Positions 8,927 through 58,390 of a stretch of DNA of 64,000 bases are shown piece by piece (position 1 is the stretch's first letter; each line of letters starts with the position of its first letter). This DNA is from Sipunculus nudus. Lineage: Eukaryota > Annelida > Sipuncula > Golfingiida > Sipunculidae. A program made the position numbers and the translations under genes. The stretch spans positions 6,017,464-6,081,463 of the forward strand of contig CM049320.1 in NCBI GenBank assembly GCA_026874595.1. The letters run 5' to 3'. Under the pieces are notes generated by a model. The model was not told the origin of the DNA, did no database searches, and was given only the letters and a program-made list of their open reading frames with translations.

Positions 8927-9096
8927 AAGAATGAGAATCTGGGAAGATCCGGAATCCTCCCGGAAAAAATCAGAATTCTCATTTTTCCCGGGAAAAAATG
9001 AGAATCATTTCATACTATGATTTGATTCTCATTTTTCCCGGGAAGCATGAGAATTCCCATTATTCCTTGGAAAAAAACCAGAATTCTTATTTTCCC
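8927..9096 (+). repeat. Left palindrome array (ATTCTC-ATTTTTCCCGGG units)
   Basis: Three or four degenerate ~30-bp units, each near-palindromic around CCCGGG with arms GAGAAT/ATTCTC. The outermost ~35 bp, containing GGGAAGATCCGG, is not palindromic and fixes the orientation relative to the right array. Confidence 0.8.
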
Positions 9097-9629
9097 AGCC
9101 AGCTCCAATTTGTTAAATGATATCCTTTTAATAGTTATGGTGGGTTAAGTTTGCATATTTTACTACGATATTATAACCAAACTTTAATGTTATTAACTGA
9201 CCATTGCTGAAAGAACAGTAACATTTTTGTCATGAAAAAAAGGAGAAAACACATTTCTGTTAAAATCAGTTTTATTCACACATGATAGGAATAAACCCAT
9301 CGCATACATGTAAGTTGAAAACAAGCACACCTGTTATTTACATATTAGTTCTTAGCACACATATGATTCAATTATAAAGATTTCTAGATGCGAATATTTT
9401 TAATCTACAATTCTGTGAAGATAAACATCTATGTTAGACTGACTAACACATCTTTTTTATTCTCTGGGAACCTTATCTCAGAAACCTGACCGATCTAAAA
9501 TTAATATATATTATAACAAAAAAAAATGAAGGAACTTGTTTTATATATATATATATATTTTAAGGAGAAATGATCTGCGGGTATGCAGTCTTTCCTCCGT
9601 GGTCACACAGCGCTCTATGTTTTGCAACA

Positions 9630-9802
9630 GAGTGTAAGATTTGGCATGATAGGTTGTATATGCTTGGTATTTCATGTCACACTAAATGAGTTCAACGGGC
9701 TTCTCTCTCTCATTTGCAGCTGTTCTCAATAATATGAATATTTTAATTATTATTATAACTTTACTGATTTTGTTTATTTAATATTTCATATGCATTAAAA
9801 CC
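9630..9802 (+). repeat. ~175-bp direct repeat, copy 1
   Basis: Starts GAGTGTAAGATTTGGCATGA and ends CATATGCATTAAAACC. It is nearly identical to 12916-13090, with a handful of substitutions and a small indel in the T/A-rich tail. The sequence on either side differs between copies, so these are the true ends. Confidence 0.85.
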
Positions 9803-10762
9803 TCTGCGTTACCCTGTGACATATCACACATATATAACAAGCCTTTGTTCCATGATGCCTGGGTACTGATTGCATAATCCCCTTATCTTGGTCACTGGGT
9901 CCCTTATTTGTACAGGCCAAGTCCTAATCTGTAAATCTCATGAGGGTAAAGGTGTTTATCTCATCGGGGTGACCTCTAAAATGGGGGTCCCGTGATGTTT
10001 AGTCAGCTAGGAGCACACACAGATAGATGATATCACGATAACATATAATTACACTGTATATGTAGACCTTGTATATGTCAGGGTATAATCAACCGACATT
10101 TCATTTCATTGGCCAGTATAGTGGGTGGAGTTCACCTTACCCGTCTGACCAATGGAGTGAATGGGGTGATGTTATTGGTTATATTCCAATGAGAGAGAGA
10201 GAACAAAAGCCAGGGTATAATCATGTGTGGACAGATTCCTTTTTGGCCACTCTGCACTGAGGACGCTTTTTATGTATTGACATTTATATATATATATTTG
10301 GATGCCACTGAAAAATAGAAATGGTAACCTAAGTTTGCGAATTCACCTGTTGTGGCTGTGTGCCACAAGTGCCACAAACTTGCTTGATTGAGAACGTGAA
10401 TGGGAGAAAGACGAAGTTTCAGTTTAGTAAAGTAACATAAGTTTACATTGGCGTCGCGTGCCAGGTCGAACTCAAATGTCCGATCACACGCCTGGAGATG
10501 GAAATTCCTGCATCAACGGAGAAAACCGAGTTCAAGGAAAAGAAAAACAACAAAACATCGAATACGCTGTCGAAACTGACGCCGCTACAACCACTGTTGT
10601 CCTGATGTGTCAAAAACGCTAGCAGTCTTATAAGCTGTGGACAGGCCATGCAGAAACGCTCAGGATGACAGTAAGAAGTTAAACATCGAAGAATTTCTAT
10701 TGTATATTAATATATATATTTCTATAAAAAAAGTAAAACGTCTTTTATTTTATGATTAGTAA

Positions 10763-10763
<1 letters not shown>

Positions 10764-10791
<28 letters not shown>
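10764..10791. repeat. (AAT)n microsatellite
   Basis: Nine or so uninterrupted AAT/ATA triplets. Confidence 0.9.
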
Positions 10792-10793
<2 letters not shown>

Positions 10794-10919
10794 GCAGAAT
10801 ATGTATTCTTTTTTGTGTGACATTTCGATGTATATTGCATGTAAATAAGAATTCTGTGAGTTTTCCAGTTCTCACTTTATCGAGATGTAATTTGATTTAG
10901 ATCTTCTTGCTGTGTGTTG

Positions 10920-12320
10920 CAAATTTTAAATATGGTTCTGGGTGACAGTCTCACTGCATATGCCATCATGTGAGGCATAGGCTTAAAGTTTAAACATTAT
11001 GTATACATATTCTTGAGGCAATTATTTATAGATGCACTTTAGATAAACCAAGTTATCACTTCAGAAATTAAAACGGAAATGTCTTATAAATGTATCTAGA
11101 AACATCATGTTTTGAGCTGAATGTTGTACACTGTTTATTGATTGTCCCCTGAATATTAGATCTGACTGTATGGGTGGAACAGATAAGACTAATTTCATGT
11201 TGTTAGAGTCTAAATGCTACGGGGTCCAGCATAGACTTGGGCAGTCAATACAGTGCATTGTCATAAAGTGTAACTCTAGATATTAGAACATTGGCCATAG
11301 ATACTTATTAATATAACGAATAACTCTTTTTTTTATTAAATCACTTTTGTTTTACATTAAGCTGAATGCTATACTCTGTTTATTGATTGTCACCTGAATA
11401 TTAGATCAGACTGTATGGGCGGAACAGATATGACTAATTTTCATGTTGATACAGTCATAGGGAGTCAAGCATAGACTTTGGCAGTCAATACAGTACAAAG
11501 TCATAAAGCGAAATGTTAAATATTAGAACATCAGCCATAGCTACTTGTATAACAATCACTGTTTTTAATTATATCACTTTTACTCTACATTAAGCTGAAT
11601 GTTGTGAACTGTTTTGTTAGTCTCCTGAATATTAGGTCTGACTGTATGGGCGGGACGGGTAAGACTAATTTCATGGTGATAGGGTCACAGTGCTGTGCAG
11701 TCAAGCATAGACTCAGTCTTTCCAAACAGAACATTTCATTAGGCAAGATGAACATTAAAAGGAGCTAAACGAAATATTTTATTCAAAATGCTTAACCTTT
11801 GAAATTACGTTAATTATTTTGTGTACATTCCGAAAGGAAGGATAATAATTTTACATATGGGCTAGCTGTTTTGCACTGAATTTTGTGTACTGTTAACTGA
11901 TAGCTTAATTGTGAAAAATAGATCTCACTGCTGTGGGGGGCAGGTATGACTAAGTTCTTTGTACAGTCTCACTGTTTAAGGGCGAAACAAAGACTGTTGC
12001 TTTCAGTGCAGTGCATTTTCACGCTGCAGGATGCAAATTCTTCCAATGTAAACATGGTTCTTCAATATGTATAACTATTAAATATACTTTGTTTCTGATC
12101 AAATTAAAACTTGAATTCCACTTTTTGTATATAAACTGTATTGATGCTGTTTTGTACTAGGCTTTATGTATTGTATATTGATGTTTTCATGAACATCAGA
12201 TCTTACTGTTGAAAGGTACAGATGAGACTAACTTCATGTATGAGTCTGATTGCTGATGTATACAAAAAAAAACTGGCTTTCAATATAAATCATAAGATTT
12301 GGCAAGATGCATGTAAGCAA
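10920..12320 (+). repeat. Degenerate ~240-bp tandem array
   Basis: The anchors GCTGAATGTTGTACACTG (11115), GCTGAATGCTATACTCTG (11361) and GCTGAATGTTGTGAACTG (11594) give periods of 246 and 233 bp. Two older copies follow near 11877 and 12163, and a possible partial one precedes near 10930. Each unit repeats the order ...CCTGAATATTAGATC, GACTGTATGGG, GACTAATTTCATG, AGCATAGACT, CAGTCAATACAGT. No reading frame is preserved between units. Confidence 0.8.
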
Positions 12321-12553
12321 GCTGGAAATAAGTTTGACAATAGTTTTCTTTATTTACAGTTGTGTTTAACCATGTCATTGATGTAAATATATTGAGTTGT
12401 GGTGTATTATATTGTGTTGTGTATCAGCACCGCTAAAATGGACTTACGAAGGAGGAAATTTTTTCTGGAAATATTTAATTACGATGCCCATACCAAGGGC
12501 AAGGGTATACTGCACTGTGGGGGAATGCAGGCAGGGAAATGAAAGCGAGGGAA

Positions 12554-12604
12554 GCACCTCTGGGGGCTAAGACCACAATAATGTCTCCCCAGAGGGTGAG
12601 GTGC
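12554..12604 (+). other. GC-rich hairpin of unknown origin
   Basis: CCTCTGGGG (12557-12565) pairs perfectly with CCCCAGAGG (12587-12595). A second, alternative pairing joins GCACCTC (12554-12560) and GAGGTGC (12598-12604). It lies in an unusually GC-rich 150-bp island within AT-rich repeats. It may be a structured RNA fossil or simply an inverted repeat. Confidence 0.4.
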
Positions 12605-12915
12605 TCGGGCATCCACATGCTATACAGTCAATGAACTGATGCAATGAATATTTGAGAAATGTGTACTATTTTTTAATTTTGATATATATATATATTTTTA
12701 TAAAAAAAAACGTTCACATAATTTGTCTTCTAGATTATTAATTCATGTACTTGTATTTTATCATGCCAAATCTTGTTCTTCTGGGATAAATGGATCAATA
12801 TAAATTAGGCATTGGTATACACACATTTATATAGGTTCATATTAAGGACTTTATATATGTATTTAAAAAAAAGAAAATCATTCTAATTTTCTTTTTTTTA
12901 TCATGGGTGGTGTGG

Positions 12916-13090
12916 GAGTGTAAGATTTGGCATGATAGGTTGTATATTCTTGGTATTTCATGTCACACTAAATGAGTTCAACGGGCTTCTCTCTCTCATT
13001 AGCAGCTGTTCTCAATAATATGAATATTTTAATTATTATTATAACTTTACTGATTTTGTTAATTAAATATATTTCATATGCATTCAAACC
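12916..13090 (+). repeat. ~175-bp direct repeat, copy 2
   Basis: Second copy of the repeat at 9630-9802. It abuts the Penelope-like coding remnant directly. A short inverted match (ATCATGCCAAATCTTG) lies just upstream at about 12762-12777. Confidence 0.85.
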
Positions 13091-13557
13091 ATTCAAAGGC
13101 GACAAGGAGAACCCACACAACAAAGGCTATGCAACTGCCGTGACAAATCTGACTGCCCTCTCAATGGAAAGTACCTAACCCCGTCTATTGTTTACCAAGC
13201 CGACGTACACAGCAACGGTACAGTTAACTCATCCATCGGCATGACCGGAGGCCCCTTCAAACAAAGATATTACAACCCCAAGAAATCATTCACGCACAGG
13301 ACCCAGTCAAACGAAACCGAGCTTGCAAAACACATTTGGACCCTGAAAGACAAACAACAAAGCTTCACTATCACCTGGTCTATAATCCAGCAGTCAAACA
13401 CATTTATGACCTCACCACGTCAGTGCAATATGTGCTTGGCAGAGAAACTAGCAATTATAAGCTCAAAACAAAAAAACTTTTGAACAAACGTTCGGAAATT
13501 GTTTCCACCTGCCGCCATGGTCCAAGGGCACCCAACCGTGCTAAAAAGAAATTATAA
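13091..13557 (+). pseudogene. Penelope-like element: C-terminal zinc-finger/GIY-YIG endonuclease remnant
   Basis: The plus-strand frame reads CNCRDKSDCPLNGK (the Cys cluster that precedes the nuclease), then IVYQADVH, SSIGMTGGPFKQRYYN, NETELAKHIW, CNMCLAEKL. This is the GIY-YIG endonuclease order of Penelope-like retroelements; the GIY and YIG motifs appear as IVY and SIG, and the conserved Arg (QRYYN) and Glu (NETEL) are present. A frameshift at the A-run near 13466-13477 moves the final block (LLNKRSEIVSTCRH) to another frame, where it ends at 13557. The reverse transcriptase is missing: the sequence upstream is the 175-bp repeat, so the copy is 5'-truncated. It is dead as a gene. Confidence 0.85.
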
Positions 13558-13578
13558 AAACCAATATCGCAACTAGTT

Positions 13579-13635
13579 GAATTCCAGTCACCTGACGAGC
13601 CGACGAGGCGAAACCGACGGTCGTGACCCAGATTC
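13579..13635 (+). ncRNA. Hammerhead ribozyme motif of the Penelope-like element
   Basis: The core CTGACGA (13592-13598) is followed by a stem II of GCC/GGC with loop GACGA (13599-13609), then GAAA (13610-13613). A minimal stem III follows (CC/GG around GAC), ending in the cleavage triplet GTC (13620-13622). Stem I pairs GTCAC (13587-13591) with GTGAC (13623-13627), and after an internal loop GAAT (13579-13582) with ATTC (13632-13635). All nucleotides required in the catalytic core are present (CUGANGA, GAAA, NUH). Very short stem III and open stem I are typical of hammerheads in Penelope-like elements. Cleavage would fall after 13622. Activity is inferred, not shown. Confidence 0.82.
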
Positions 13636-13647
13636 ATCACATACCTT

Positions 13648-13650
<3 letters not shown>

Positions 13651-13687
<37 letters not shown>
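13651..13687. repeat. (TA)n microsatellite next to the hammerhead
   Basis: About 18 TA units directly 3' of the Penelope-like remnant. Confidence 0.95.
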
Positions 13688-13688
<1 letters not shown>

Positions 13689-13870
13689 CTTTTTGTCAGC
13701 TTCATATTTTATTCACATATTTCTATTTTGTGTGAGTGTACTATTTATTTCTTTTTTAACACTTGCATGAACAGTTCAGAATTAATGTGAAAGAAAGATT
13801 ATCAAAGTTTCTTTCTGAAAAAGAGAAATAAGTATGAAAAAAATTAAAAGTGTTAGGTTGGCATCAATAA

Positions 13871-14148
13871 TTCCCATTCTTCCCGGAAAAAAATGAGAAT
13901 TCTCATTTTTCCCAGGTTTGAATTTCAAAAATGAATTCCAATCTCTCCCGGGAAAAATGAGAATTCTCAATTTTCCCGGGAAAGACTGGTATTCTCATTT
14001 GTCCCAGGAAGAATGTTAATTCTCATTCTTCCCGGGAGGAATTGGAATCCCTAATTCGTACCATCTCTGGATTCTCACTTTTCCCGGGAAAAATCAGAAT
14101 TCTAATTTTTCCCGGGAGGAATCCGGATCTTCCCAGATTCTCATTCTT
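13871..14148 (-). repeat. Right palindrome array (inverted relative to the left array)
   Basis: Eight or so degenerate ~30-bp units of the form ATTCTCATTTTTCCCGGGAA. The outer edge (CCGGATCTTCCCAGATTCTC) is the reverse complement of the outer edge of the left array. Confidence 0.8.
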
Positions 14149-25350: not shown

Positions 25351-26523
25351 TCAAGCATGCCCTTTAAAGAATTTTTCTGGGGAAACACAATCTTGGGTTC
25401 TGTTCCACCATTTATCCAAGTGTTCATAGGTTTTATGAAATTCTGGGTGTGTATGAAGAAATTCACAAAGGTTACAAAGGAAATGGTATTGTGGAAATGA
25501 TACAGCTTTGTAATATTTCTTCCATTCAAAGTACTGGTTATACAAAGTAGCGTTTGCATCCAGTTCTCTTAAATATGCTGCTAATGCAGAGGGTGATTTA
25601 TATTCCCTGATATCGATGAACGAGTGGTCAGGTAAATACTTCTTGTAGTCAACCAAACCTAAAACTATAGGCACTACGTTTAATTTCAGTATTTTCCACA
25701 ATTTCTCTGTTGCATAATCTCTACAGAGACTGTTCTCAAAGGAAAGGTAAAATTTATACGTTTTGCTCAACATAGAATAGCACGCTGGCCTGTTCCAACA
25801 TTTCGATGGACCACATGCCCCATATATATCCACGTGTATGTATTTCTGAAGTTTCGCTACATAGTGTTTTCTGTGACTTTGTGTCGAGCAGTGACTGACA
25901 AACCATGCAATCAGTTTTGATTTACCTTTAGAGTAATCAAATGGCACATGATGGATTTCCTTCGGTCCTTTCTTTACTATGGTCCCATACTGCGCATGAA
26001 TATCCGAATCATAACGGTAAGTTTGGGTAAGATTAAACAAACCGTTAAATGCTTCCATTCCGCCGGTGTACATTGGTGATTCCATGAGAAAAAATACGAA
26101 ATACTGCCAGGGAAACCGGAACTTTGGCATTCCAGACGGGGTTTTTATGTTCCTTATGTGTACAATCACAGCATGGCTTGTATTGAACTCAGAACGATTG
26201 TTTGTCGTTTCACATTCAGTGATGGTACAGTTATGTTCGATAAAGGGGCTTCGTCCAAGTCCGAATTCATAATAACGCTGAGAAAAGAAAGTGGTCCAGA
26301 ACATTATTTTCTTAATCTGTCTTTTTGCAATGTTTGTGTCTTTGGAATTATTTGGCAACAATGCCCCATACGACCAACTTAGGTTTTTTAATCTATGGGG
26401 TATTATGTTCAAGGATAAGACATGAACAGATAGATCTTGCCGATATTTATAAAATGTTACTGTCATCACTGAAAGTCCAAACACAGTTAAAAGAATAAAC
26501 CCGCTTTTTTTCGTAGTTTCCAT
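25351..26523 (-). CDS. Alpha-1,3-fucosyltransferase (GT10), FucT-1
   Basis: Single-exon gene, 390 residues. The ATG at 26521-26523 aligns with the start of the three other copies; an in-frame GTG further upstream is not a plausible eukaryotic start. It is a predicted type II Golgi enzyme transferring fucose from GDP-fucose to GlcNAc-containing glycans. A short cytosolic tail is followed by a hydrophobic anchor (FILLTVFGLSVMTVTFY). The GT10 core includes LIAWFVSHC, YKFYLSFENSLCRDYATEKL, NVVPIVLGLVDYKKYLPDH and a C-terminal LCNLCEFLHTHPEF segment. Several N-glycosylation sequons are present. It is the most diverged of the four copies and stands alone, about 13 kb from the array. No lesion seen. 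Confidence 0.93.
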   Translation of the reverse strand: METTKKSGFILLTVFGLSVMTVTFYKYRQDLSVHVLSLNIIPHRLKNLSWSYGALLPNNSKDTNIAKRQIKKIMFWTTFFSQRYYEFGLGRSPFIEHNCTITECETTNNRSEFNTSHAVIVHIRNIKTPSGMPKFRFPWQYFVFFLMESPMYTGGMEAFNGLFNLTQTYRYDSDIHAQYGTIVKKGPKEIHHVPFDYSKGKSKLIAWFVSHCSTQSHRKHYVAKLQKYIHVDIYGACGPSKCWNRPACYSMLSKTYKFYLSFENSLCRDYATEKLWKILKLNVVPIVLGLVDYKKYLPDHSFIDIREYKSPSALAAYLRELDANATLYNQYFEWKKYYKAVSFPQYHFLCNLCEFLHTHPEFHKTYEHLDKWWNRTQDCVSPEKFFKGHA

Positions 26524-27114
26524 GTCAATGATTGATTCCGTCACGATAAACCTATATCCAAGAACGTCTGAAATATGAAAAGTAATCTATGTCAATGTAA
26601 TATTCTCCCCAACATATCTCTTTTGTAGACTCAATCAGAGCAATATATTCTACATAACTCTAGTGCAGTATAATAAGATAAGATAGATCCTATGACCTAG
26701 TTTTGTATCAATGCACAATATATCAGTTATTGTCATTATGGTGAAATGTGAAAATATCTAACATTTTAAAACATGATTTCTTCATAAAAAAAATTATTCG
26801 TGCAAAAAAAAAGAGATGACACACAACATAATGGCGGTATATCTGGATATAAGAAGTACATGGTCACCCGTAGACAGTTTAACTCGTTTTCTGTAAATAA
26901 TTTTGTTAAACAGTTCATATTTGATCTGTTGGTATTTTAAATAGCAGAATGGTTCATGTGAGAGCAAATATCCAAATAGCTCAGGCTGATGCAAACAGTA
27001 CATAACTCCGATCAAAGTGATATATCTTTTTACGTAAATCGTCGTTTTTATTTCTATGGCATCAAATATTGAGCACTGATTATATTCACGAATATTACAA
27101 GTTTTCATTTGCTT

Positions 27115-30362: not shown

Positions 30363-31184
30363 CAGTGAAACTCTTACTTGCGGACAACTCAGTAAGGCGG
30401 ACAACTCACTAATGCGGACACTAAATCTCAGTTCCTTCAAATTTGCCTCTATATTATGTTTAACGTAAACTCAGTCAAGCGGACAACTCACTCTCCCGGA
30501 CAACGGACAAAATTTCCCGTTACGCCAGCGTATCCAGTACATATTACAACCCTCTAAAGCGGACAGACATCGCGAGTTCTATTTTGTTCATATATCTGCC
30601 GGGAGATGGCGCTCCGAGGTCGTGACCTCGTATGAACTGTTTGGGTCAAAGCGGCAGCAACAAAGACAAGCGTAATTTGGTGTAACATCGTGATGTTACA
30701 TGTGAATATACAGTCGAAATTGTTGTTTACTTCTATAAATGTGTATGAATCACAATCATTACTTTATTAATATTGGCCGGTCAATCAGAAAAAAAACTGT
30801 CAATAATCAACCTGTTATATACCTAGTGCAACCATCCATGAACTAAGCTTACTTAGAAGAGGAAAAATGGTACGTCGAAGTGTAACTGCGGCCTAGAAAA
30901 GTATGTGAGGCCTAGCTGATGAAGTTAAAGGAGAGAAAGAGTTTGTCTTTCCTTTTTTATGATTTAATTTATAAATATTAAACCAATATTTTAGCTATTT
31001 TGAAAATGATTTAAATAAAATTTATGTATTTCAAATAAAGCGTAAACATAATCAAAACAGAGAATATCAGTAACATTCAATGAAGAACAGACGCAATATG
31101 CCAAACTCTTCTAAACAGGACAACTCACATATACGGACAAAATCCTCCAGTCCCTTGAGCGTCCGGCTTACAGGAGTTTCACTG
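30363..31184. mobile_element. Tigger/pogo-type non-autonomous DNA transposon
   Basis: The ends are CAGTGAAACTCTTACTTGCG and, on the opposite strand, CAGTGAAACTCCTGTAAGCC. They form terminal inverted repeats and are flanked by TA on both sides (30361-30362 and 31185-31186), the Tc1/mariner-superfamily target. Just inside are repeated GCGGACAACTCA motifs, typical of Tigger-like subterminal sequence. The 822-bp element has no transposase frame. Confidence 0.85.
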
Positions 31185-39397: not shown

Positions 39398-40576
39398 TTA
39401 TCCCATTGTGGCATGCCCTTTAAAATATTCTTCTGGAGTAACACAGTCTTTTGTCCTGTTCCACCATTTATCCAAGTTTTCATACGTTTTATGGAAGTCT
39501 GGCTGCGTATGAAGAAATTCACAAAGGTTACATAGGGAATGGTATTGTGGAAATAATACAGCTTTGTAATATTGTTTCCAATCAAAGTACTGGTTATACA
39601 AAGTTGAATTCGTATCCAGTTCTCTTAAATATGCTGCTAATTCAGAAGGTGATTTATAATCCCTGATGTCGATAAACGAGTGTTCAGGCAAGTATTTCTT
39701 GTAATCAAACCCGCCTAAAACTATGGGTACTATGTTTAGATCCAGTATTTTCCACAATTTCTCTGTTGCATAATCGCTACATAGACTGTTCTCAAATGAA
39801 AGGTAAAATTTATACGTGTTATTTAACATAGAATAGCAGGCAGTTCTGTCCGAACATTTTGACGGGCTACATCCTCCATAAATATCCACGTTTATGTATT
39901 TCTGAAGTTCCATTACGTATTTTCTTCTGTTGCTTTGTGTATGACAGTGACTGACAAACCATGCAATCAGTTTCGTTTTACCCTTCGAGTAATCAAACGG
40001 CACATGATGGATTTCCTCCAACCGTTTCTTTACTAAAGTACCAAATTCAGCTTTAATATCCGAATCATAGCGGTAGGTTTGGGTTAAATTAAACAAACCG
40101 TTAAATTTTTCCATTCTGTCGCTGTGAATTGGTGATTCCATCAGAAAAAATACGAAATACTGCCAGGGAAACCGAAACTTTGGCATTCCAGACGGAGTTT
40201 TCATGTCCCTCATGTGTACAATCACAGCGTGGCTTGTATTGAACTCGGATCGATTATTTGTCGTTTCACATTTAGTGAAAGTGCAGTTATGTTCGAGAAA
40301 GGGTTTTCGTCCAAATCCAAATCCATAATCAGTTTGCGAATAGAAGGAGGTCCAGAAGAGTATTTTTCTTATCTGTTTTTCTGCAACGATTTTGTTTTTG
40401 TATTTATTTGGCATAAACGATCCAAACAACCCATCTACTTTCAATCTTTCGGGTATCAGGTTCAACGATAATTCCTTAATATTTAGTTCTTGCCGAAATA
40501 TATAAAATGTAACTGTCATCATTAAACATCCAAAAACAGCTAAAAGAATAAAACCTCGTTTTGTCGTAGTATCCAT
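39398..40576 (-). CDS. Alpha-1,3-fucosyltransferase (GT10), FucT-2
   Basis: Single exon, 392 residues, ATG at 40574-40576 with A at -3. Type II membrane anchor at about residues 8-27 (FILLAVFGCLMMTVTFYIF). GT10 core motifs: LIAWFVSHC at about 203-211, YKFYLSFENSLCSDYATEKL at about 255-274, and IVPIVLGGFDYKKYLPEH after it. Sequons (NCT, NRS, NTS, NLT, NNT, NST, NRT) fit a Golgi glycoprotein. It is the left-most member of the array and keeps the conserved upstream segment at 41270-41560. It differs from FucT-3/4 at many scattered residues and from FucT-1 more strongly. No lesion seen. Confidence 0.94.
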   Translation of the reverse strand: MDTTTKRGFILLAVFGCLMMTVTFYIFRQELNIKELSLNLIPERLKVDGLFGSFMPNKYKNKIVAEKQIRKILFWTSFYSQTDYGFGFGRKPFLEHNCTFTKCETTNNRSEFNTSHAVIVHMRDMKTPSGMPKFRFPWQYFVFFLMESPIHSDRMEKFNGLFNLTQTYRYDSDIKAEFGTLVKKRLEEIHHVPFDYSKGKTKLIAWFVSHCHTQSNRRKYVMELQKYINVDIYGGCSPSKCSDRTACYSMLNNTYKFYLSFENSLCSDYATEKLWKILDLNIVPIVLGGFDYKKYLPEHSFIDIRDYKSPSELAAYLRELDTNSTLYNQYFDWKQYYKAVLFPQYHSLCNLCEFLHTQPDFHKTYENLDKWWNRTKDCVTPEEYFKGHATMG

Positions 40577-41269
40577 ACTAATGATTTATTCCGCCACGAT
40601 TATCTTGTATTCTGGGACGTCTGAAATATGAAAGTAACGCATATCAGTTTAATAAACTAACCAACATATGTCAGTTGCAGAATTTTTAATATCATATATA
40701 GTTCTTCTACAATATAATAAGACATCGTCCTGGTGTATTTTTTTTCTTTTATTGTACGGGGGAATGGGAAAGTATTATTAAAAAGAGGCACCTCCCTCGA
40801 ACCCATAAAGGTTCTTCAGATTGAACTAAGTGAGGAACCTTTTAAGTTGCCATCTGGAATCTTAAAAGCAAAGTTCTTTCTGAGACCTCAAGTAGGTTCT
40901 TCTTTGTAACCTTCAAGTTTCCAAATGGACTCCTAAAGGTGTATAATACTTAAATACCTGTTCCTATAGATATTTATTCGTGCAAAATAAAGTGATTATT
41001 TGCCTGAAAACATAACATTATCGTAAATAGTTAATATTTGATCAGTTGTATTTAAAATAACTGAAGGATTCATGTGAATTGAATAAAAAATGAAAATGCT
41101 CAGTGTGATGCAAAGAGTACTTCCAATGTAGTTTTATGTCTGATCCAAATGATACATATGTTTGTGAAAATCGTCTGTTTTCTTCTTTAATATTAGAATA
41201 CTGAACTGAATCCAATAGGTCCCCCAGTAGCAATTATAATATTCACGATTACCACAGATCTTGATTTCC

Positions 41270-47417: not shown

Positions 47418-48596
47418 TTATTGCATTGCGGCATGCCCTTTAAAATATTGTTTTGGAGTAACACAGTCTCGTTTCCTGTTCCACCATTTATCCAAGTGCT
47501 CATACGTTTTATGGAAGTCTGGCTGCGTATGAAGAAATTCACAGAGGTTACATAGGAAATGGTATTGTTGAGGTGATACAGCTTTGTAATATTGTTTCCA
47601 AACAAAGTACTGGTTATACAAAGTTGCATTCCCATCCAGTTCTCTTAAATATGCTGCTAATTCAGAAGGTGATTTATAATCCCTGATGTCGATGAACGAG
47701 TGGTCAGGCAAGTATTTCTTGTAATCAAACCCGCCTAAAACTATGGGTACTATGTTTAGATCCAGTATTTTCCACAATTTCTCTGTTGCATAATCTCTAC
47801 ATAGACTGTTCTCAAAGGAAAGGTAAAATTTATACGTGTTATTTAACAAGGAATAGCACGCTGATCTGTCTGAACATTTTGATGGGCCACATGCCCCATA
47901 AATATCCACGTTTATATATTTCAGAAGTTTCATTACATATTGTCTTCTATGGCTTTGTGTATTACAGTTACTGACAAACCATGCAATCAGTTTCGTTTTA
48001 CCCTTAGAGTAATCAAATGACATATTATGTATTTCCTCCAACTGTTTCTTTACTAAAGTACCATATTGAGCTTTAACATCCGAATCATAACGGTAAGTTT
48101 GGGTTTAATTAAACAAACCGTTAAATATTCCCATTCTGCCGCTGTGAATTGGTGATTCCATCAGAAAAAATACGAAATACTGCCAAGGAAACCGAAACTT
48201 CGGCATTCCCGACTGAGTTCTTATGTTCCGCATGTGTACAATCACAGCATGGCTTATATTGAACTCGGATCGTTTATTTGTCGTTTCACATTCAGTGAAG
48301 GTGCAGTTATGTCCGAGAAAAGGTTTTCGTCCAAATCCAAATCCATAATCAGTTTGCGAATAGAAAGAGGTCCAGAAGAGTATTTTTCTTATCTGTTTTT
48401 CTGCAACGGTTTTGTTTTTGTATTTATTTGGCATAAACGATCCAAACAACCCATCTACTTTCAATCTTTCGGGTATCAGGTTCAACGATAATGCCTGAAT
48501 ATTTAGTTCTTGCTGAAATATATAAAATGTAACTGTCCTCATTAAACAACCAAAAACAGCTAAAAGAATAAAACCTCGTTTTGTCGTAGTATCCAT
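47418..48596 (-). pseudogene. Alpha-1,3-fucosyltransferase FucT-3 with one nonsense codon
   Basis: Same 393-codon span as its neighbours and open throughout except for one stop. Codon 164, TTA (Leu) in FucT-2 and FucT-4, is TAA here (plus-strand TTA at 48105-48107), just after FNGLFN. The stop leaves only the anchor and stem; the YKFYLSFENS/DYATEKL donor site lies after it. Apart from the 5'-most ~25 codons the sequence is almost the same as FucT-4. Inactivation is therefore recent, or the stop is a polymorphism. Its upstream flank also lacks the conserved segment kept by FucT-1 and FucT-2. Confidence 0.9.
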
Positions 48597-48993
48597 ACTA
48601 ATGATTTATTCCGCCACGATTATCTTGTATTCCTGGACGTCTGAAATATGAAAGTAACGCATATCAGTATAATAAACTAACCAACATATGTCAGTTGCAG
48701 ATTTTTTAATATCATACATAGTTCTTCTACAATATAATAAGACATCGTCCTGGTGTATTTTTTTTCTTTTATTTTACGGGGGAATGGGAAAGTATTATTA
48801 CAACGAGGCACCTCCCTCGAACCCATAAAGGTTCTTCAGATTGAACTAAGAGAGGAACCTTTTAAGTTGCCATCTGGAATCAAGCATTGTATTTTTTTGA
48901 TAACTTGAGCAAAACATAATGGTAAGTTAAAAATTCTTGATGTATGAAAAGTTTTTACTGTAAATGTAACTTTCACATTTAAGTTACCGAACA

Positions 48994-55263: not shown

Positions 55264-56442
55264 TTATTGCATTGCGGCATGCCCTTTAAAGTATTGTTTT
55301 GGAGTAACACAGTCTCGTTTCCTGTTCCACCATTTATCCAAGTGCTCATACGTTTTATGGAAGTCTGGCTGCGTGTGAAGAAATTCACAGAGGTTACATA
55401 GGAAATGGTATTGTTGAGGTGATACAGCTTTGTAATATTGTTTCCAAACAAAGTACTGGTTATACAAAGTTGCATTCCCATCCAGTTCTCTTAAATATGC
55501 TGCTAATTCAGAAGGTGATTTATAATCCCTGATGTCGATGAACGAGTGGTCAGGCAAGTATTTCTTGTAATCAAACCCGCCTAAAACTATGGGTACTATG
55601 TTTAGATCCAGTATTTTCCACAATTTCTCTGTTGCATAATCTCTACATAGACTGTTCTCAAAGGAAAGGTAAAATTTATACGTGTTATTTAACAAGGAAT
55701 AGCACGCTGATCTGTCTGAACATTTTGATGGGCCACATGCCCCATAAATATCCACGTTTATATATTTCTGAAGTTTCATTACATATTGTCTTCTATGGCT
55801 TTGTGTATTACAGTTACTGACAAACCATGCAATCAGTTTCGTTTTACTCTTAGAGTAATCAAATGACATATTATGTATTTCCTCCAACCGTTTCTTTACT
55901 AAAGTACCATATTGAGCTTTAATATCCGAATCAAAACGGTAAGTTTGGGTTAAATTAAACAAACCGTTAAATATTCCCATTCTGCCGCTGTGAATTGGTG
56001 ATTCCATCAGAAAAAATACGAAATACTGCCAAGGAAACCGAAACTTCGGCATTCCCGACTGAGTTCTTATGTTCCGCATGTGTACAATCACAGCATGGCT
56101 TATATTGAACTCGGACCGTTTATTTGTCGTTTCACATTCAGTGAAGGTGCAGTTATGTTCGAGAAAGGGTTTTCGTCCAAATCCAAATCCATAATCAGTT
56201 TGCGAATAGAAGGAAGTCCAGAAGAGTATTTTTCTTATCTGTTTTTCTGCAACGGTCTTGTTTTTGTATTTATTTGGCATAAACGATCCAAACAACCCAT
56301 CTACTTTCAATCTTTCGGGTATCAGGTTCAACGATAATGCCTGAATATTTAGTTCTTGCTGAAATATATAAAATGTAGCTGTCATCATTAAACATCCAAA
56401 AACAGCTAAAAGAATAAAACCTCGTTTTGTCGTAGTATCCAT
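55264..56442 (-). CDS. Alpha-1,3-fucosyltransferase (GT10), FucT-4
   Basis: Single exon, 392 residues, intact. Anchor at about residues 8-27 (FILLAVFGCLMMTATFYIF), then LIAWFVSNC, YKFYLSFENSLCRDYATEKL, IVPIVLGGFDYKKYLPDH and the C-terminal LCNLCEFLHTQPDF with paired cysteines. The stop codon TAA overlaps an AATAAA (CAATAAAGG), a possible polyadenylation signal. The coding sequence is nearly that of FucT-3 with Leu164 restored. The upstream flank (56443 to about 58390) is a more diverged copy of that of FucT-2 and lacks about 0.8 kb including the conserved segment. Predicted to fucosylate N- or O-glycans in the Golgi. Confidence 0.94.
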   Translation of the reverse strand: MDTTTKRGFILLAVFGCLMMTATFYIFQQELNIQALSLNLIPERLKVDGLFGSFMPNKYKNKTVAEKQIRKILFWTSFYSQTDYGFGFGRKPFLEHNCTFTECETTNKRSEFNISHAVIVHMRNIRTQSGMPKFRFPWQYFVFFLMESPIHSGRMGIFNGLFNLTQTYRFDSDIKAQYGTLVKKRLEEIHNMSFDYSKSKTKLIAWFVSNCNTQSHRRQYVMKLQKYINVDIYGACGPSKCSDRSACYSLLNNTYKFYLSFENSLCRDYATEKLWKILDLNIVPIVLGGFDYKKYLPDHSFIDIRDYKSPSELAAYLRELDGNATLYNQYFVWKQYYKAVSPQQYHFLCNLCEFLHTQPDFHKTYEHLDKWWNRKRDCVTPKQYFKGHAAMQ

Positions 56443-58390
56443 ACTAATGATTTATTCCGCAACGATTTTCCTGTTTTCCGGGACGTCTGAAACATGAAAG
56501 TAATGCATATCAGTATAATAAACTCACCAACGTATGTCAGTTGCAAAATGTTCATATTTACATAGTTCTTCTACAATATAATAATATATGTTCCCGGTGT
56601 ATTTTTTTTTCTTTTAAGTTTACCTGGATTCTTTAAAGCAAAGTCCTTTCTAGAACCTTAAGTAGGTTCTTCATTGTTACCTTCAAGTTTCCAAATGCAA
56701 CCTCTTAAAATGGATTACACTTATAACCCTGTATTAATAGACATTTATTCGTGTAATATAAACTGATTATTTGCCTGCAAACATACAGTATGATAAAAAA
56801 TTATTATTTAATAGCTCATCATTTATATTCATAAACACGTCCACATGAATTACCCACTTTTCATGCATGGGTATGTCACATTCAGACCTGGTCGCTGAAA
56901 AAAGGGAAAAAGGAAGCAACATTTTACAGTGTAAACCTGTGTTTTCGGTCATAAACACTGACAAATCAGGTTGTTCTCTGCCTGTTGGGTTTTCAGCAGA
57001 TTGTTGCTGACTGTTCACGTCTTTTTTTTTTTGCGCCCGCTTGTTTTTACTGTTACATGAAGGAAAAACCCCGTGCTAATTATTGTATACCAGAGCAAAC
57101 CAAACTGTATGTGCTTTGATTGAGCCGTGGTCGGTGGTTTAATTACTTTTACCGCTTACATGTCAGACCATTCATTCGTGCCTCGGTGGTACTCTATCAT
57201 TCCTTGCTGGCCCAGCTCTGAAAGCTGATCAATAAACTTTTACATTTGGTGTCTGTAATGATCTTGCAGAATTTTGGTGGAAATTAAGTGTTCGAGCATT
57301 GTCTTAAACTGATTGCAGTATAAGTTATGATTTTTGAAGTTGTACATATCACTATGAGACCAGTCTAATCATTAATTTGGTGATTTGGTGTTAAATGCAT
57401 GGACGGTCCTGTTTCAATAAAGCGGATTTTATAACCTGCATCTGGTTTTCAAATAGTAATGTTTAATTATGTATGCAGGAAACCACCACACACAAAAAGG
57501 GTTCATATTCTAATGTGTCTAATTCTATGTAATTTTCACATTTGCAGTAAAAAGTCTTTTTATATGAAATATGAAACAGTTATCGCTTGTTTTCTAACAG
57601 AAAACCCTAAGATGAATATTAAATACAAATAAAAAATGTTTTTAACATATATATTTCAGCGTGCCATTAAAGAACCCTTATAATAACTGGAACCTCGGTA
57701 GTGACAACACCGCTTACACTTGAAAAGGGTTCCATGGTTGCAATTGGAAAAAAAATTAAGGTTTTGGAAAAACTTTCAGAAAGTGTACACAGCAATGTTC
57801 CTACGAAACGGTGGGAAACGATACTAAGACTTCTGAATTTGCGCTGGCTCTGAGCTATCTTCTGTTTTACATGCTCTAGGTAAAAGATTACGAGACAATG
57901 TACTCTGTCCTATGTCTACCTATATTTACGCCAAGTATTCCTTCATTTGTTTCTGCTCAAAAATCAAATTAGGTCACCGGATCCTAACTGATCTATCTAT
58001 CTCTCTATATTCTGCCTTTCTACCTACCTATTATTTATTTATCTATCTATCTATTTATCTATCTATGATTTAAATATGTATGTGTGTATGCAAGTTCATG
58101 AAATACATCAATGCATTGTTTCTCATCACTCAGGTATTTGTTTGCGCAGTCACTGAAACACACTTAAACGGGCACAAACCAATACAACCCACTCACCTGA
58201 ACAGTGCCATGTAGTGTGCCGTGCCAAAAATCTGTTCCTGGTAGTTAAAATAATATGTCGATATATTATAAATCTGAAGCAGCTCTACTGTAATGTAGAT
58301 TGGATATTACAATACATAATATAAAGCTAGGCCATCACGGTCTATTCAGCCTTTCGTGCAAATCCATCATAAACGCGATGCCTTTGTAAA
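56443..58390 (-). repeat. Diverged upstream flank of FucT-4
   Basis: Homologous in order to 40577-43400 and 48597-50700, for example CAAATCAGGTTGTTCT, CAGCAGATTGTTGCT, CCAATACAACCCACTCACC and AAGCTAGGCCATCACGGT. It has many differences and indels. It marks the right end of the array. Confidence 0.75.

Follow-up and report, generated by a model that had tools for sequence, protein, structure and literature searches.

The window (the whole 64 kb stretch of Sipunculus nudus DNA analysed here) contains the remnant of a Penelope-like element (PLE) with a hammerhead ribozyme (HHR) close behind its coding part. The motif at 13578-13636 on the plus strand is a minimal type I HHR. It exceeds the 13579..13635 of the initial annotation by one pair at its ends, U13578 pairing with A13636. 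That it lies at the 3′ end of what remains of a PLE, as already proposed there, was supported by Rfam, a structural descriptor, tblastn and the copies of the element elsewhere in the genome. Upstream lies the 5′-truncated endonuclease of the element. The homology of the remnant to other copies begins at 13095, the stop codon occupies 13555-13557, and 20 nt separate this stop from the start of the HHR. The RT domain is missing in the truncated copy. The reading frames upstream of the ribozyme run from 13067 to 13483 and then, shifted, from 13228 to 13557. The frames and the copy alignment thus agree with the earlier description of a shifted endonuclease frame and place the slip near 13475. The alignment shows a gap there in a single other copy (C5:90542970) and in none of the further copies that span the position. 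The features are collected in Table 1. Elsewhere in the window, single-frame genes resembling GT10 fucosyltransferases are clustered at 25351-26586, 39398-40585, 47418-48605 and 55264-56451 (minus strand), and one gene of the cluster is split into two frames. The gene at 55264-56451, the only one of them run against Pfam, matches PF00852 with E 4e-61.

Table 1. Features of the Penelope-like insertion and of its hammerhead ribozyme in the window.
Feature	Position	Strand	Description and basis
(TA)n, far end of what is probably the same insertion	9542..9558	.	repeat scan
Inverted pseudo-LTR (pLTR) piece, 'long end'	9559..9632	-	9601-9632 identical at 32/32 positions; rest by eye
5′-truncated PLE endonuclease (GIY-YIG type)	13095..13557	+	tblastn, genome copies, frames
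Minimal type I HHR	13578..13636	+	descriptor scan; explicit pairs and energies; RF00163 24.0 bits (below gathering)
Stem I, 5′ strand	13578..13591	+	outer 13578-13583, inner 13587-13591; partner 13623-13636
Stem I, outer block	13578-13583 with 13631-13636		6 bp: 5 Watson-Crick and one U-G
Stem I, internal loop			CCA/CCA, separates outer and inner blocks
Stem I, inner block	13587-13591 with 13623-13627		5 bp
Core CUGACGA	13592..13598	+	sequence
Stem II	13599..13609	+	3 bp and 5-nt loop (GCC-GACGA-GGC); 13599-13601 with 13607-13609
Core GAA, A13613 and stem III	13610..13621	+	GAA is 13610-13612
Stem III			A13613-U13621 and two C-G pairs, 3-nt loop; very weak helix
C17	13622..13622	+	predicted cleavage 3′ of this base; position in the HHR scheme
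pLTR stretch after the HHR, to the short-end junction	13637..13650	+	common to copies, with variants
(AT)n at the 3′ junction	13651..13687	+	starts 29 nt past the cleavage site

The pairs and the descriptor contain all that characterizes a type I HHR: the core elements CUGANGA, GAAA and UH, three helices, and an opening through stem I. Every core base named in the initial annotation is present in the sequence and in the explicit pairs, and the stem layout given there was likewise borne out, with stem I in two blocks, a stem II of 3 bp, and a stem III made of one A-U and two C-G pairs. The descriptor, which combined the core with the three stems, was run over both strands of the 64 kb window and found a single site, namely this HHR. 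In 400 dinucleotide shuffles, it gave 2 matches with a stem I of at least 5 bp and 0 once the outer block of stem I was also required to have at least 5 bp. The bare core pattern, by comparison, is not significant, with 2 matches in the window versus 0.66 expected and two or more matches in 14 of 100 shuffles. The second of these matches, at 30916-30947, was discarded, as its stems do not form and the descriptor found only one site. A string with two differences from it occurs at G000:C1:7351773, and this stretch may belong to another repeat.

A covariance search, which the initial annotation had proposed, gave no hit above threshold. The motif reaches 24.0 bits with RF00163 (E = 5e-4 on 141 nt) against a gathering score of 34, and this match was listed neither in a 1.5-kb scan nor in the whole-window scan at the gathering cut-off, which is a curated threshold and not a biochemical feature. 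The family's own model (R1) scores 91.5 bits on the window motif, the window sequence being itself included in R1. For second genomic copies with compensatory stem changes, the outcome was mixed: many copies exist, but within the family none of 17 pairs had changed on both sides, in a set of 29 copies (L058 left out) that were picked by the motif and in which stem II could hardly vary.

Folding predictions give a less favorable picture of the single molecule. The MFE of the monomer (-14.9 kcal/mol) belongs to another fold, the HHR structure lying at -13.0. Among the pairs looked at, the probabilities are about 0.01-0.02 for stem III, 0.56 for stem II, and 0.77-0.99 for inner stem I, and the fold z-score is only -0.83. 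By these models, the single-molecule HHR is a poor folder and thermodynamically weak. For two copies, RNAcofold predicts a double hammerhead at -36.7 versus 2 x -14.9 kcal/mol, in which stem III would become a 9-nt helix of two 4-bp blocks flanking an A-A mismatch (predicted self duplex -9.9 kcal/mol). In self-pairing, the stem III loop takes rank 16 among the 64 possible loops, so its duplex is not exceptional.

The endonuclease of the window copy is broken, because its frame has slipped and because it departs from the motif at the Y of YIG and at H. In sister copies, the Y, YIG, R, H and E positions, as judged by eye, are mostly those expected for GIY-YIG. In alignments with host loci, some of which overlap, the expected residue stands at the Y of YIG in 17 of 25, at H in 24 of 27, and at E in 30 of 31. 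Pfam and NCBIfam did not recognise the endonuclease as a nuclease, the single-sequence structure prediction of the window endonuclease was poor (pLDDT 36), and a PDB search with it returned three matches with E 0.39-0.81, none of them GIY-YIG. Relatives of the endonuclease were sought in viral_contigs (6 pattern matches, none confirmed), phages and plasmids, with no result, and the HHR pattern had no match in viral_contigs. In genome_contigs, a partial endonuclease DNA pattern hit three stretches, and a relative is encoded in only one of them, L002 (JAAEPJ010000379.1); the best tblastn E values of the other two, L001 and L003, are 0.21 and 2.9.

L002 is a short contig with two PLE copies in opposite orientation. 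The window endonuclease matches their RT and endonuclease frames with 41-42% identity (tblastn, E 3e-32 and 2e-31). By eye, a sequence resembling an RT, with YRDD, precedes the endonuclease in these frames; neither Pfam nor the PDB gave a match for it. Behind one of the two endonucleases, at the contig end, the first half of an HHR can be read by eye; in its stem II, both sides are changed at two pairs and the pairing is kept, again by eye. The model R1 found no match on L002 at E up to 1. The contig is filed under the bacterial MAG 'Cli_8', though it consists largely of the two PLE copies and the HHR half, and it is probably a eukaryotic contamination in the prokaryote genome set.

In the host assembly (1.43 Gb, 153 contigs), the family is abundant. 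A 24-mer of the core and stem II was found at 277 places with up to 3 mismatches, the window included, and the reversed pattern, searched in the same way as a control, at 0. These numbers establish the other copies with a shared core that the initial annotation had suggested looking for. Among 100 places listed, 43 had the exact 24-mer. A genome search with the whole remnant gave at least 48 matches, based on 40 scored candidates out of 565; apart from the window copy, the closest of the matches listed has 97% identity over positions 13-566 of the query, and the matches of the copies start at various points of the remnant. The earlier suggestion of a recently active family finds support in this nearest copy at 97% and in a mean divergence of 4.3% from the local majority over 13440-13577.

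For a closer reading, the window and 66 of 70 loci supplied 84 copies that are distinct in a 130-nt stretch, identical stretches and overlapping loci having been collapsed. This sample was drawn from the 277 places by the HHR motif and consists mostly of the best-kept copies (no mismatch in 42, one in 36, two to four in 6). Soon after the HHR, 52 of them enter a repeat, 28 continue into the pLTR, and 4 do neither. An endonuclease on the same strand and at most 150 nt upstream accompanies 49 of the 84, the window counted (34/52 in the repeat class, 14/28 in the pLTR class, and 1/4 in neither). In eight copies (L021, L060, L079, L089, L090, L091, L093, L094), A replaces C at the cleavage position, mostly giving GUA; these possibly represent an older or sister subfamily.

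The ends of the copies read accumulate at two points, both inside (AT)n or (AC)n repeats; counted from the cleavage site, most lie at +27 to +29 or at +106/107 nt. In the repeat class, 24 of the 52 copies enter the repeat exactly at +29; the range +27 to +29 takes in 36, and 16 are scattered between +16 and +45. In the pLTR class, an AT run is reached in 23 of 28 copies and lies at +106 or +107 in 15. The remaining five are L020 and L058, which seem to enter the next tandem unit, L042 with an interrupted AT run, L060 with none, and L039, which exits the pLTR within a few bases. A repeat of at least 10 nt lies within 150 nt in 73 of the 84 copies; the same holds for 72 of 2000 stretches taken at random from the window. 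In the single pLTR stretch on which the tract comparison rests (160 nt of L020), the only two (AT)2+ tracts are at +28 and at +106 to +109, the two end points themselves. At short ends, the copies most often overlap the repeat by 4 nt (27/51); the overlap is negative in 16/51, in part because the overlap script ignores indels and one tail subgroup. These observations suggest that the element inserts into AT repeats, with the qualification that the AT runs may partly have grown after insertion instead of being the target.

More than one copy was found at 17 loci. The opposite-strand copies form 15 pairs, all head to head and mostly with one short and one long end. At 13 of these 15 loci, a repeat-class copy faces a pLTR-class copy (that of L039 being doubtful), and the L021 pair combines a long end with a copy outside the classes. 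At L027, the minus copy counts among the repeat ends; its sequence looks like a long end with a deletion and lacks the part that usually follows the cleavage site. An inverted long-end piece stands upstream of the body in 27 of the 84 copies. Same-strand pairs about 2.36 kb apart were found twice (C4:62182436/62184795 and C4:1471337/1473700), and a third same-strand pair within 5 kb is spaced 1.73 kb (C14:33291418/33293147). The tandem or inverted pLTR arrangement of PLEs, with its optional tail, is thus present in the 15 opposite-strand pairs with short and long ends and in two tandem pairs.

The window copy can be read in the same terms. The plus-strand body, the HHR and the short end together span 13095-13650 and adjoin the (AT)n at 13651-13687. 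From its sequence, the minus-strand piece at 9559-9632 is probably the other arm of this head-to-head insertion, and in the window the head-to-head design of the family is interrupted by 9633-13090. A direct repeat of 175 bp, 96% identical between its copies at 9630-9802 and 12916-13090, marks both ends of this 3.46-kb interval. It is likely that 9542-13687 represents one PLE insertion into an AT repeat, which was later split by another insertion or a duplication. The repeat TATAACTTT (at about 13039 and 13683) was considered as a target duplication and rejected, as its first copy lies inside the 175-bp repeat that also occurs at 9630-9802. At 13863-14130, and also at about 8927-9098, diverged direct and inverted repeats are built on a palindrome resembling CCCGGGAAAAATGAGAATTCTCATTTTTCCCGGG.

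In the initial annotation, the full core beside a shifted frame had been taken for a survivor, which the decay of the family does not bear out. An unbiased set was drawn from the 39 non-window rows among the first 40 matches, whose selection rested for the most part on the endonuclease (about 500 of 568 nt); 38 rows were read and, with the window, make 39 copies, C11:63819496 being left out as its match stops before the HHR. The core is intact in 24 of the 39, compared to 25.5 expected from the decay of each copy's own coding stretch (11 core sites), or in 24 of 40 if C11:63819496 is counted as lost. Core and stems are both intact in 21 of 39. Non-CpG differences amount to 0.029 per site in the core versus 0.043 in the background (P = 0.23), and, taken over its full length, the HHR shows no higher conservation than spacer and coding stretch together (0.056 vs 0.039 at non-CpG sites). 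An intact core is to be expected of a young copy, because neutral decay predicts it and the nearest relative is 97% identical. By this comparison of sequences, the intact core of the window copy is a matter of youth, not of selection, and its HHR is most likely without function and drifting.

Similar ribozymes and elements have been described. Minimal type I HHRs in PLEs were reported by Cervera and De la Pena in 2014 and by Lunse et al. in 2017 (cited via PMC6155905, PMC7229834 and PMC7761336). As far as the available text of these articles describes them, they share with the present case the type I core, an almost absent helix III, the location in the pLTR, dispersed copies in animal genomes, and tandems. 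Nothing essential differs within that text, stem III consisting here of two G-C pairs and one A-U. In the same limited text, the role of the HHR in PLEs is described as unknown (PMC7761336). The HHR is an ordinary, well-preserved case; both its own class and that of the retroelement around it are already known.

The Poseidon PLE PAc of Anolis carolinensis resembles the family in several respects set out in the accessible part of PMC11167929: a C-terminal GIY-YIG endonuclease, an HHR near the junction of pLTR and ORF, two internal RT starts that define an optional 'tail', AT-rich targets, and the cutting and extension of both strands. The RT starts of PAc lie at an AC-rich stem loop which is stated to be non-homologous to the cut DNA (PMC11167929), whereas here both end points fall on AU tracts that match (AT)n, and the 160-nt pLTR stretch of L020 has no others. 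The stretch between the two ends is also longer, about 78 nt compared to the 30-40 bp given for PAc in that text. Penelope elements of Adineta vaga show head-to-head inverted pLTRs, an optional tail, 5′ truncations and partial tandems as well (PMC3846280, available portion). The examples given there have a 31-bp tail and target duplications of 9-10 bp; in the present family, about 78 nt separate the ends, AT repeats stand at the ends, and duplications are indistinguishable from the repeats. Metazoan retrozymes, as portrayed in the accessible text of PMC7229834, likewise combine a type I HHR with tandem copies in animal hosts. They are non-coding and 170-400 nt long, whereas here an endonuclease frame precedes the HHR and the unit measures about 2.36 kb.

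Several other explanations of the motif were considered. A hammerhead-like string without ribozyme ancestry would account for the Rfam score below the gathering cut-off, and the loose core pattern alone does match by chance. However, the full two-block structure appears in none of the 400 shuffles, in the independent PLE of L002, half an HHR stands in the corresponding position (by eye), and HHRs in PLEs are already on record in the available literature. A chance match was rejected on account of the shuffles and is considered extremely improbable. The motif could also derive from a non-autonomous retrozyme (short tandem repeats with a type I HHR) instead of an autonomous PLE, given that retrozymes and PLEs co-occur in animals according to the accessible text of PMC7229834. 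Such an origin is very unlikely, since endonuclease coding sequence lies upstream in the window and in the 49 of 84 copies mentioned above, and the short non-coding tandem unit of 170-400 nt that is typical of retrozymes was not found: the endonuclease adjoins the HHR, and the same-strand spacings are 2.36 kb twice and 1.73 kb once, with none of 170-400 bp.

The window copy, with its core and all stems intact, would also be explained by selection after insertion, the HHR being either a co-opted ribozyme or a survivor that cuts a host transcript. The 39-copy decay test does not support this: the core is kept as often as neutral decay predicts, its conservation is not above background, and an identity of 97% to the nearest relative leaves little time for decay, so that selection is hardly probable here. 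A further explanation is that the HHR is one by descent but never cuts alone here and serves only to give the RNA its shape, for instance as a fold to which a protein binds close to the RT start. Stem III is nearly missing from the monomer ensemble, and in the available part of PMC11167929 the HHR of the anole PLE cuts only with protein and PAc is inserted in vitro without need of HHR cleavage. Against these points stand the catalytic bases, which are those of the family majority, and the title of Lunse et al. (2017), according to which PLE HHRs cleave as dimers. On balance, a purely structural role is unlikely.

The preferred reading, held to be very likely as a whole, including the scheme of insertion and ribozyme role proposed below, is that of a minimal type I HHR in a PLE pLTR, right behind the endonuclease, in a window copy that is dead and 5′-truncated. 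The element would nick AT repeats, and an AU tract of its RNA would anneal to the (AT)n primer, so that RT would start at one of two internal AU tracts, about +29 and +107 past the cleavage site. From there, it would proceed through the HHR into the endonuclease region, often stopping early. Extension of both cut strands would then yield two head-to-head arms, one short and one long. The likely role of the HHR would be the cutting of tandem transcripts into 2.36-kb units. Because its stem III is so short, two HHRs may have to join for activity, or a protein may assist.

With the minus copy of L027 set aside, the copies run through the HHR and past the cleavage site, in a sample in which copies beginning at that site could not appear, all 84 having been selected by the HHR core. 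The anatomy of the copies thus suggests that the template RNA was uncut at the HHR when it was copied, or had been rejoined there. For the endonuclease body to precede both AU start sites, the RNA must be a circle or an uncut tandem. The PLE might even be copied from a circular unit-length RNA, the HHR cutting tandem transcripts and the 2.36-kb unit being re-ligated at the junction, as in retrozymes. This extension of the scheme is quite doubtful, and the data fit circular RNA and uncut tandem transcripts alike. If the template were circular, repeated rounds from the AU tract would explain the unit-spaced tandems, the read-through of the HHR and the two AT-repeat ends.

What sets the family apart from the single PLE studied in vitro, as far as the available text of PMC11167929 shows, is that its insertion ends lie at AU tracts matching the AT-repeat flanks. 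With 277 near matches, two preferred ends, and both tandem and head-to-head forms, it offers a natural data set. As the copies read through the ribozyme, whether the template is uncut tandem RNA or a re-ligated circle becomes directly testable. In this way, the family makes the question of the ribozyme's role in PLEs accessible to testing.
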